From positions 11,712 to 18,459 of the forward strand of contig DEGE01000024.1 in NCBI GenBank assembly GCA_002351365.1: a stretch of DNA of 6,748 nucleotides, in the 5' to 3' direction. A program made the position numbers and the translations under genes. Source of the stretch: Candidatus Saccharibacteria bacterium UBA2834. Lineage in GTDB: Bacteria; Patescibacteriota; Saccharimonadia; Saccharimonadales; Saccharimonadaceae. Shown piece by piece: positions 784 to 6,748 of this stretch. A model generated the notes under the pieces. That model was not told where the DNA came from. It saw only the letters and a list, made by a program, of their open reading frames with translations, and did no database searches. Positions within the stretch are counted from its first letter, which is position 1; each line of letters starts with the position of its first letter.

Positions 784-792
784 ATTATAACA
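784..792 (-). promoter_or_regulatory. Extended -10 promoter of the Nudix-RNase H gene
   Basis: On the minus strand TG-T-TATAAT (792-784) is a perfect extended -10. No good -35 lies 16-18 bases upstream. Only nine bases separate the hexamer from the ATG at 774, which puts the likely start site at about 776 and gives an mRNA with a leader of about 2 bases or none. No ribosome binding site fits in that space. Confidence 0.75.
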
Positions 793-819: not shown

Positions 820-837
820 AAAAAATCCTAAGTAAGT
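820..837 (-). terminator. Intrinsic terminator formed by the closing stem of the small RNA
   Basis: The 3' arm ACTTACTTAGGA (837-826) pairs with the RNA's own 5' end (954-943) and is followed by TTTTTT (825-820). The pairing is long-range and AT-rich, so termination may be incomplete. A separate promoter for the next gene begins about 28 bases further on. Confidence 0.55.
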
Positions 838-955
838 ATCGTTTTCCCGTGATAAGAACACGGTGGGTAAACTCTCTCATCTCGAAACCACGGCTTCAAG
901 ATGTCAAATTCCCTAAAACATGATTATTCAGGAAAATCATGCACTTACTTAGGAC
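820..955 (-). ncRNA. Candidate structured small RNA, about 136 nt, four-way junction
   Basis: A perfect 12-base inverted repeat (954-943 with 837-826 on the minus strand, TCCTAAGTAAGT / ACTTACTTAGGA) closes the element. Inside are three hairpins: 941-935 with 925-919 (7 bp, CATGATT/AATCATG), 903-895 with 886-878 (9 bp including one wobble, CATCTTGAA/TTCGAGATG, loop GCCGTGGT), and 863-859 with 851-847 (5 bp, CCGTG/CACGG). An extended -10 just upstream puts the RNA's 5' end at about 955, the base of the closing stem, and six Ts follow the 3' arm (825-820). That arrangement is a complete small-RNA gene read from the minus strand. Possible tertiary contacts are loop 1 (UUCCU) with AGGGAA at about 914-909, and GUGG of loop 2 with CCAC at about 867-863. 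I recognise no family: the SRP RNA tetraloop motif is absent and it is short for 6S RNA, although a divergent 6S cannot be excluded. Confidence 0.7.
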
Positions 956-961
956 ACTTTT

Positions 962-970
962 ATTATATCA
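962..970 (-). promoter_or_regulatory. Extended -10 promoter of the small RNA
   Basis: TG-A-TATAAT (970-962, minus strand) is a perfect extended -10. The start site 7 bases downstream is G955, directly at the first base of the closing stem. It lies in the short gap after the M50 protease stop (988-990), so it serves only what follows. Confidence 0.72.
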
Positions 971-5497: not shown

Positions 5498-5526
5498 ATT
5501 ATACCACATCCCGCCCCTGTTCGCAA
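5498..5526 (-). promoter_or_regulatory. Promoter of the rpsF-ssb-rpsR-efp-miaA operon
   Basis: TTGCGA (5526-5521) and TG-G-TATAAT (5506-5498; hexamer 5503-5498) are separated by 17 bases. The start site is expected at about 5491, giving a leader of about 65 bases. The promoter lies directly after the terminator of the upstream gene. Confidence 0.78.
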
Positions 5527-5532
5527 GCCATG

Positions 5533-5561
5533 AAAAAGCCCCGGACTAAGTCCGAGGCTTT
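5533..5561 (-). terminator. Intrinsic terminator of the 268-residue protein gene
   Basis: The arms 5561-5550 and 5546-5535 form 12 pairs around a TTA loop (GCCTCGGAC / GTCCGGGGC core), followed by TTTTT (5537-5533). The one non-Watson-Crick pair is T-G on the minus strand and A-C on the plus strand, so it serves the minus-strand gene that ends at 5592. Confidence 0.9.
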
Positions 5562-5591: not shown

Positions 5592-6398
5592 TTAGTTTTT
5601 GCGCTCCGGCTCTTCGTCGGGCCCATCAGAGTCAGGCTCGTCGTCGCCACCGACGATATTGCCCAACATTTCGAGCAAATCACCCAAACCAGGGCCGCCC
5701 AGGATACCTACGCCGATGCGCAGACCGCCGTCGGGAGACTTCTTCTTGTCTTCCGCTTCCGCCTGCTTGATGAATTCGTCGCCCGGATCCACATCGTGAT
5801 GCGCCTCGAACCAAGCACGGAGTTCATTCAGCGCATCAGCCGCCTCTTCGGCAAAGTCTTCAAACTCCGCCACAGCGTCCTCGTCAACCGAATACTCGTC
5901 GGAGTTCTCCAGCTCAGCCAGATGCGTCCTGAATGACCCAAGCTGGACAACGACATTGTGGTAAACGGCGCCCAGCTCATGATTCATCACGCGAAGCAAG
6001 CGCGCAAAGGTCTCAGGCGCAAGCTCGAACAAATCCTCTTCGAGCAACAGGGAATCGGCCACCATATCCAGGACGGTACGCTCGCGCCGGTCCAGAATCA
6101 AAGAGGCGAAATGATCATCGCCCGCCGCAGCCGAATGCGCCATCATGTGACTCGCGACATTCATGTTTCCAAACAACCGACAGCACAGCATCGAACGATG
6201 CACCTCGCACTCAAAATCCAGCTTCTGTACAAAATCGAAGTCGTCGGACTGGTCGGCCAATTCCTTCAGGACAGGTTTCGCTACCAGGTTGTGCAGGTTC
6301 GCCAGGGCCGTCACGTTGCCGCTCAGGAACCACTGTTCATACAGGTCCATCAGGGTTCTCGCTGTGTACAGCTTTAAAGTAATCTCATTGCTTGTCAT
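5592..6398 (-). CDS. Unrecognised acidic helical protein, 268 residues
   Basis: I do not recognise this protein. There is no signal peptide. Residues 1-160 look all-helical with mixed charge and contain Cys-Cys (72-73) and many His and Met. Residues 161-215 are strongly acidic (EDFAEEAADALNEL and similar) and could be an amphipathic or coiled helix. After a KKK (218-220) comes a Gly-rich hydrophobic stretch at 224-251 (GVGILGGPGLGDLLEMLG), then an acidic Pro/Asp/Glu tail. The gene stands alone: a strong promoter (6492-6520), a leader hairpin with T-tract, AAAGGAGGTG (6416-6407) ten bases before ATG 6398, and a terminator. G+C is clearly above the operon downstream (58% in two 60-base samples), so it may be foreign or under different selection. 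That coding is real is supported by the length, the strong ribosome site and the terminator; the function is open. Confidence 0.85.
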   Translation of the reverse strand: MTSNEITLKLYTARTLMDLYEQWFLSGNVTALANLHNLVAKPVLKELADQSDDFDFVQKLDFECEVHRSMLCCRLFGNMNVASHMMAHSAAAGDDHFASLILDRRERTVLDMVADSLLLEEDLFELAPETFARLLRVMNHELGAVYHNVVVQLGSFRTHLAELENSDEYSVDEDAVAEFEDFAEEAADALNELRAWFEAHHDVDPGDEFIKQAEAEDKKKSPDGGLRIGVGILGGPGLGDLLEMLGNIVGGDDEPDSDGPDEEPERKN

Positions 6399-6521: not shown

Positions 6522-6551
6522 AAAAAGACCCCGGTCGCTCTGACCAGGGTC
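6522..6551 (-). terminator. Intrinsic terminator of the gene ending at 6565
   Basis: GACCCTGGTC (6551-6542) and GACCGGGGTC (6536-6527) form 10 pairs around the loop AGAGC, followed by TTTTT (6526-6522). The single wobble is T-G on the minus strand, in agreement with transcription from the gene that stops 14 bases upstream. Confidence 0.9.
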
Positions 6552-6564
6552 AAATTTTACGCAG

Positions 6565-6748
6565 TTAATCTTCGCTCGAATCCTCATCTTCGTCGGAATC
6601 GTTCCATCCACCGGTGGGGTCAAAGTAATCGCAACTGGCGCAGTCGCCATTACACCTCATATCCATCCACTCCGGATGCAATTCACGCAATTCAAGAATA
6701 TGGTCAGTCGCATCGTCGCGCACAGCCATGGCTCTCTGCCACAAATCA
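6565..6748 (-). CDS. C-terminal part of an unrecognised small acidic protein with a Cys motif
   Basis: An open frame enters from the right edge and stops at TAA 6567-6565. Its first codon in view is at 6747-6745. An ATG at 6729-6727 would give a 54-residue protein, but no convincing Shine-Dalgarno precedes it and the frame stays open to the edge, so the true start is probably outside. Counting from that Met, Cys26, Cys30 and Cys33 form C-x3-C-x2-C (RCNGDCASCDY), possibly part of a metal site, followed by an Asp/Glu/Ser-rich tail (NDSDEDEDSSED). A good terminator 14 bases downstream supports a real gene. Its composition resembles the neighbouring 268-residue protein gene. I cannot name it. Confidence 0.65.
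   Translation of the reverse strand, partial: DLWQRAMAVRDDATDHILELRELHPEWMDMRCNGDCASCDYFDPTGGWNDSDEDEDSSED

Follow-up and report, generated by a model that had tools for sequence, protein, structure and literature searches.

A predicted compact and divergent 6S RNA gene in Saccharibacteria

Introduction

What is encoded between the M50 protease gene and the NUDIX/RNase H gene of Candidatus Saccharibacteria bacterium UBA2834? The window (i.e., the whole stretch of 6,748 nucleotides that was analysed) carries a series of minus-strand genes, in which the M50 protease gene (988–1611), an intergenic RNA and the gene for a NUDIX/RNase H protein (774–1) follow each other; L28, MiaA, EF-P and others are encoded upstream of this stretch. 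A sequence-only reading had proposed that the intergenic region encodes a free-standing structured RNA of about 136 nt with its own promoter, three inner hairpins arranged in a four-way junction, and a closing stem that doubles as terminator. The RNA was said to match no family, and was thought to be either a new regulatory RNA or a very divergent 6S RNA. A covariance-model search against Rfam and an alignment of relatives had been proposed as checks; the results of both are presented here.

As described in parts of PMC12005410, PMC8414754 and PMC8876501, known 6S RNAs form a rod that mimics an open promoter, and the 5' strand of its bubble is the template on which RNA polymerase carrying the primary sigma factor makes a short product RNA (pRNA). 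According to the same parts of these papers, this copying refolds the 6S RNA and thereby frees the polymerase.

Results

A predicted RNA gene with its own promoter and terminator

The predicted transcript covers positions 820–955 of the minus strand and is 136 nt long, including the terminal T-run; RNA position p corresponds to window position 956 − p. It is preceded by an extended −10 promoter, TGATATAAT, at 962–970 (minus strand), which places the +1 on 955 and hence the 5' end at the base of the closing stem, as had been read from the sequence. In the genus alignment, a loose −10 element (TANNNT) precedes the RNA in every one of the 41 sequences; 35 have an extended −10, always at the same spacing.

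The closing stem is formed by a 5' strand at 943–954 (RNA 2–13) and a 3' strand at 826–837 (RNA 119–130), both on the minus strand. These arms make up the perfect 12-bp inverted repeat, with 105 bases between, that had been noticed before. It is the only perfect inverted repeat in the window of at least 12 bases within 150 bases; 0.07 of these are expected per window according to 200 mononucleotide shuffles. The two strands covary, with two-sided changes in at least some sequence for seven of the eight outer pairs.

Six Ts at 825–820 follow the 3' arm and make the closing stem an intrinsic terminator. A T-run, defined as five Ts or as six with one A or C, was found in 38 of the 41 genus sequences. 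It lies directly behind the stem in 36 of these 41, is preceded by an extra hairpin in two (L023 and L028), and does not occur after the closing stem in three (L009, L017 and L018). The proposed double role of the stem thus applies to most of the genus but not to all of its members. Because three members have no T-run and two have an extra hairpin, the closing stem is more than just a terminator, and its terminator function has been gained or lost among members of the genus. Since the T-run follows directly in 36 of 41 sequences and not in all, the structural role of the stem is probably older than its role in termination.

The minus strand from 815 to 960 folds at −50.7 kcal/mol. Dinucleotide shuffles reach −29.5 ± 3.6 kcal/mol (z = −5.88), and none of 200 was as good. 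BLAST searches found the RNA in 42 of the 45 genus genomes, and the three misses were genomes with an estimated completeness of 81–94%. One genome, G043, contains two copies (C4:50735–50867 and C19:7744–7875). The second lies on a contig of 8.7 kb, is identical to the copy of G041 over the compared stretch, and is either a true duplicate or contamination.

For the genus alignment (A1) we used 41 of 43 sequences, leaving out two identical rows; a weak 18-base match, L044, was also excluded. The proposed pairs were standard pairs in 94.8% of the alignment cells, and pairing dropped to 30–50% when the structure was shifted by one to three columns. Two-sided changes occurred in 24 of the 44 pairs, against 16.8 ± 1.6 in shuffled alignments (0 of 500). 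The suggested alignment of relatives therefore revealed compensatory changes in the stems. Conservation and covariation support the earlier idea of a free-standing structured RNA, and point to a gene of its own at 820–955 with a predicted promoter and terminator.

Elsewhere in the window, three of the nine scanned predicted proteins (200, 268 and 59 aa; 2392–2994, 5592–6398 and 6565–6744, minus strand) had no Pfam match at E ≤ 0.001. By eye, terminator-like GC-rich hairpins followed by Ts were seen on the minus strand at 5526–5557 and at about 6523–6552, just downstream of the genes for the 268-aa and 59-aa proteins. The hairpin at 5526–5557 matched Acido-Lenti-1 with 15.9 bits, under the cut-off of 37.

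Relatives connect the RNA to the 6S family

The Rfam scan of the window yielded sub-threshold matches only, all of them away from the RNA. The window RNA did not match the 6S model (RF00013) at E ≤ 10, a search of the 45 genus genomes with RF00013 gave no matches, and none of the 295 family genomes had a match over the Rfam cut-off. This cut-off, at 46.4 bits, is a detection threshold and not a biological definition.

We built a covariance model, R1, from the 41 genus RNAs. It matched 217 of the 295 family genomes and 41 of the 61 genera, nearly always with a single match per genome; 42 of the 217 belong to the genus, from which R1 itself was made. Of the 175 family matches outside the genus, we compared 40, taken from the stronger ones listed, with the whole of Rfam. 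RF00013 matched 23 of these 40 distant members on the same strand and at the same place, with 22.7–45.8 bits, while 17 had no RF00013 match; no other Rfam family recurred at the RNA among the 40. Hence, the statement that the RNA matches no family, and likewise the empty Rfam search at this locus, holds for the window sequence by itself but not for its relatives. An example is L083, where the 6S consensus GGGagccc...gggcaCCCACCUgg is aligned to GGGAGCUC...GAGCACCCACCUGG. The aligned part comprises the base of the terminal stem and the start of the 3' bubble, and holds the core GGGA...ACCCACC. Two further family genomes had RF00013 matches of a different kind: G095 with 35.4 bits at a place without an R1 match, and G287 with 11.1 bits away from the RNA.

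A second model, R2, was made from 28 distant family RNAs (alignment A5) with a covarying rod structure. R2 does not count as independent of 6S. Its members were selected after the Rfam scans, with RF00013 matches in 23 of the 28 sequences kept versus 1 of the 13 dropped, and its rod was set with 6S in mind. One member, L101, was fetched through an RF00013 search, and is matched by R1 as well. Both R1 and R2 were calibrated briefly, which leaves their E-values approximate.

R2 found the window RNA with 62 bits (E = 4.9e-9). It matched 161 of the 197 genomes of the order (139/161 of good quality), and 112 of the 161 lie outside the family. In the phylum, RF00013 found 22 of 286 genomes at E ≤ 0.1. 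Three were over the cut-off, and 6S RNA in this phylum has therefore not been wholly unseen by models. We tested R2 at 20 of these 22 RF00013 loci (L188 and L191 belong to the window's own order), and it matched 19 of the 20 at the same place and strand with E-values up to 0.015, although in four of the 19 over part of the model. Of the three phylum loci over the 6S cut-off R2 matched two, missing the best one, L173. In scans of the whole genomes, R2 matched 74 of the 286 phylum genomes at E ≤ 0.01 per genome, of which a few may be chance, and in all 14 genomes matched by both models R2 and RF00013 agreed on the place. R1 matched the 6S loci of the phylum weakly, two of them at wrong places. 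In a further set, comprising 41 of 80 loci, R1 matched 30 and missed 11, including that of Ca. Nanosyncoccus alces (L252).

Because R2 matches the window strongly, and because R2 and RF00013 mark the same genes, the window RNA and the 6S RNAs of Rfam can be joined. Judged from these sequence comparisons, the predicted RNA at 820–955 is a compact, divergent version of 6S RNA. The relatives thus favour the second of the two options that had been offered, a very divergent 6S RNA, over a new regulatory RNA.

Rod and four-way junction

Two alignments were used beyond the genus. A4 contains 79 of 82 family sequences, after removal of identical cores. A5 contains 28 of 41 distant sequences; 12 of the 13 excluded ones were shorter or differently built, and L109 was nearly identical to L107. 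RNAalifold recovered the terminal stem alone from A4, because in this mixed alignment the genus sequences and the distant ones do not line up in the 3' part. We therefore limited A4 to counts in the 5' hairpin, the terminal stem, the loop and the start site, and used A5 for the distant members.

The three inner hairpins are present between the arms of the closing stem in the window, all on the minus strand. On the 5' side of the central bubble, the hairpin CAUGA/UCAUG (919–941) was paired in 91.5% of the cells across the 79 family sequences, with two-sided changes in all five pairs. On the 3' side, CCGUG/CACGG (847–863) was paired in 95.6% of the cells in the genus, with two-sided changes in two of five pairs. 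Between them lies a covarying terminal stem, GGG...CCC, with an apical hairpin and a strongly conserved CGUG loop (865–913). Its helices 2–4 were paired in 100, 98.1 and 94.4% of the cells, respectively (79 family sequences).

For the window RNA, the four-way junction is indeed the single fold of lowest energy (−49.3 kcal/mol), but a rod of the 6S type (−46.6 kcal/mol) is only 2.7 kcal/mol away and is preferred by several of ten distant relatives that were folded singly. The rod also covaries. In the 28 distant members 24 of its 37 pairs had two-sided changes, against 15.3 in shuffled alignments, and 91.7% of the cells were paired, a percentage that is flattered since the rod was derived from the L094 fold (50 pairs) by dropping 13 poorly kept pairs. 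The two loop contacts that had been suggested did not hold up. For the contact UUCCU:AGGGAA, AGGGAA sits in the terminal stem, and UUUUC of loop 1 is instead complementary to GAAAA, which comes after the last hairpin. For GUGG:CCAC, GUGG varies in eight of the 79 sequences and CCAC in none.

A predicted pRNA start site and collapse helix

The start-site pattern in the 79 family sequences predicts a pRNA template at 926–942 (minus strand), with a start opposite the U at 926 (RNA position 30) and the predicted pRNA 5'-AUUCAGGAAAAUCAUGC. The assumed start base is a pyrimidine in 78 of the 79 sequences (U in 66 and C in 12, corresponding to a start with A or G, respectively), and the base next to it is A in 73 of 78. 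L013 is the only sequence off the pattern. A GG occurs at positions 6/7 of the product in 62 sequences and at 5/6 in 16; the pattern permits GG only at 4/5 to 6/7, and GG is therefore not independent evidence, whereas the pyrimidine is unforced. According to part of PMC8414754, pRNAs of lactic acid bacteria have GG at 5/6, and those of E. coli and others at 4/5. The 5' bubble strand contains a long conserved run, UUUUCCUGAAUAAUCAU, and is among the best-conserved parts of the RNA.

Two alternative pairings of the central bubble share a 3' strand. In the middle stem, UUUUC at 932–936, inside the loop of the 5' hairpin, is complementary to GAAAA at 842–846 (both minus strand). These strands are nearly invariant in the genus, with 99.5% of the cells complementary, and a longer form in the distant members reaches 95.4%. 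Covariation of the middle stem was not clear in permutation tests (53 of 2000 permutations for all sequences, 114 for the distant ones and 761 for the genus). In the predicted collapse helix, GUUUU at 915–919, on the distal part of the 5' bubble strand, is complementary to AAAAC at 841–845 (minus strand), which overlaps the 3' strand of the middle stem. The 3' strand GAAAAC thus has two possible partners, UUUUC or GUUUU.

The collapse helix covaried across the family. The mean Watson–Crick run was 4.43 in the 79 family sequences versus 3.50 ± 0.12 after permutation (0 of 2000), and 4.87 versus 4.46 ± 0.10 among 37 distant sequences (1 of 2000), in both cases with relatedness uncontrolled. Within the genus alone, covariation of this helix was not clear (69 of 2000). 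In these permutation tests, the 3' strands of L080, L113 and L120 ended a few bases early. The predicted helix resembles the 'central bubble collapse helix' described for the 6S-1 RNA of B. subtilis; weak internal pairing of the 5' bubble had been predicted for that RNA, but probing did not confirm it (both in part of PMC8876501).

Neighbouring genes and alternative explanations

All 61 loci have an M50 gene upstream in the same orientation, as would be expected if the structure were a mere terminator of that gene. Yet 134 model positions are kept, with invariant loops and covariation, and the RNA has a −10 of its own, which leaves this explanation with next to no probability. In 50 of the 61 loci the RNA is followed by the NUDIX/RNase H gene at a distance of up to 300 bases, in line with a cis-acting leader, such as a riboswitch or attenuator, in which the closing stem would be a regulated terminator. 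In the other 11 loci, however, the gene is not found within 300 bases. In the window it has a separate extended −10, TGTTATAAT, at 784–792 (minus strand) just ahead of its ATG at 774; similar −10-like elements were seen, though not counted, before this ATG across the genus alignment. Furthermore, in 16 of the 40 distant loci an RNase P RNA (eight loci) or a tRNA (eight loci) comes after the RNA on the same strand. A leader would call for a constant, promoterless downstream gene. After the synteny count we dropped the leader or riboswitch as a candidate and regard it as very improbable.

The resemblance to 6S RNA could also mislead. A structured RNA specific to this lineage, with no kinship to 6S but sharing a few conserved bases by chance, would fit the lack of a direct Rfam 6S match for the window or the genus, the short length, and the stable 5' hairpin that makes the four-way fold the one of lowest energy. 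Chance would hardly produce 6S matches at the same place in 23 of 40 distant members, nor the matches of R2 at 19 of 20 Rfam 6S loci and the 14 agreements in 14 whole genomes, and we consider such an RNA unlikely. Ms1 RNA of Actinobacteria, by contrast, would keep the 6S ancestry and change the function: it is a case of a 6S-shaped RNA with a changed partner, which binds core polymerase without sigma and is about 300 nt long, according to part of PMC9130861. An RNA of this kind, with a shape derived from 6S and not copied into pRNA, would share the predicted link to RNA polymerase. Against it stand the length, which at 136 nt from the predicted +1 through the T-run is far from that of Ms1, as well as a 5' bubble strand that is among the best-conserved parts and a start base that is U or C in 78 of 79 sequences. 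This makes an Ms1-like RNA quite improbable.

The RNase P RNA genes mentioned above follow the RNA in L107, L109, L111, L112, L113, L116, L118 and L121, and the tRNA genes in L106, L108, L110, L125, L128, L129, L139 and L141. In L109 the RNase P RNA begins 26 bases beyond the R1 match. In such loci, the 6S RNA may be excised from a joint transcript.

Bacterial SRP RNA (RF00169) is likewise small and single-copy, and was considered by elimination. It was rejected: the Rfam scans gave no RF00169 match at the RNA, and the Ffh M domain (PF02978) was found in none of 41 relatives, as opposed to 14 of 14 controls. The search yielded a side observation on the signal recognition particle itself. The SRP54 GTPase domain (PF00448) had matches in 18 of the 41 relatives, one of them over the cut-off (23 bits summed), and in 14 of 14 controls. 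SRP RNA over the cut-off was found in none of 21 relatives, with weak matches in three genomes, and in nine of 14 controls. From these genome searches, the window's order appears to lack a signal recognition particle.

Discussion

Our results make it very probable that the window contains the gene of a compact, divergent 6S RNA, whose predicted 136-nt RNA would bind sigma70 RNA polymerase as a mimic of an open promoter and would likely be released after being copied into pRNA. In its own genome, an assembly of about 85% completeness, one match to Sigma70 region 2 was found. The sequence features, the conservation and covariation, the occurrence as a single copy and the homology to 6S RNA through relatives were observed directly; transcription, polymerase binding, pRNA synthesis and refolding with release are inferred from the biology of 6S RNAs, as would be any link to host attachment or starvation.

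In the proposed mechanism, the closing stem would mimic downstream DNA, the central bubble the melted region, and the terminal stem upstream DNA. The polymerase would begin the pRNA at U30 (window position 926), yielding 5'-AUUCAGGAAAAUCAUGC, and the copying would disrupt the middle stem UUUUC:GAAAA. The 3' strand thus freed could then bind the distal part of the 5' bubble strand, as GUUUU:AAAAC in this RNA and as UUGAUA:UAUCAA in relatives. The 5' strand would be kept by the pRNA while the collapse helix forms, and the complex of RNA and polymerase would dissociate.

Among known systems, 6S RNA (SsrS, RF00013) is the closest, in particular the type of B. subtilis 6S-1 and lactic acid bacteria. 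The likeness comprises the closing stem, a central bubble with a hairpin on its 3' side, and a terminal stem with the GGGA...ACCCACC core. A putative start site for pRNA, with GG at product positions 5/6 or 6/7, and a predicted collapse helix would add to it. The 3'-side bubble hairpin has been described for known 6S RNAs in parts of PMC8414754 and PMC8876501. In contrast to known 6S RNAs, the closing stem is cut to about 12 bp and is fused to the terminator in most of the genus, the 5' bubble has a conserved hairpin, and no family genome is found over the Rfam cut-off. 6S RNAs are usually about 200 nt long; at 136 nt, the RNA predicted here is shorter.

Among the open-access papers covered by our word searches, we found no description of 6S RNA in Saccharibacteria, the candidate phyla radiation, Patescibacteria or TM7x. 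In the parts of PMC8321541 that contain the wording '6S RNA', the passages are unrelated. What appears to be new is an order-wide, compact form of 6S RNA.

More tentatively, the bubble could be a conserved two-state switch of a stripped-down 6S RNA, with the middle stem as one state and the 5' hairpin plus collapse helix (GUUUU:AAAAC or UUGAUA:UAUCAA) as the other, flipped by pRNA synthesis. In an epibiont that has very few sigma factors, such a switch might be the main global control of transcription, turning for instance between starvation away from the host and growth on it. We consider this extended scenario possible but doubtful.

If the identification as 6S RNA is true, a global regulator of RNA polymerase would extend to a bacterial lineage that is among the most reduced. 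Annotation with Rfam's 6S model finds none there over the cut-off (0 of 295 family genomes), while R2 finds the RNA in 161 of 197 genomes of the order. The RNA would then be a natural 6S RNA of minimal build, with a short closing stem and a precise pRNA prediction, and its covarying collapse helix would make the release mechanism testable by comparison across genera.
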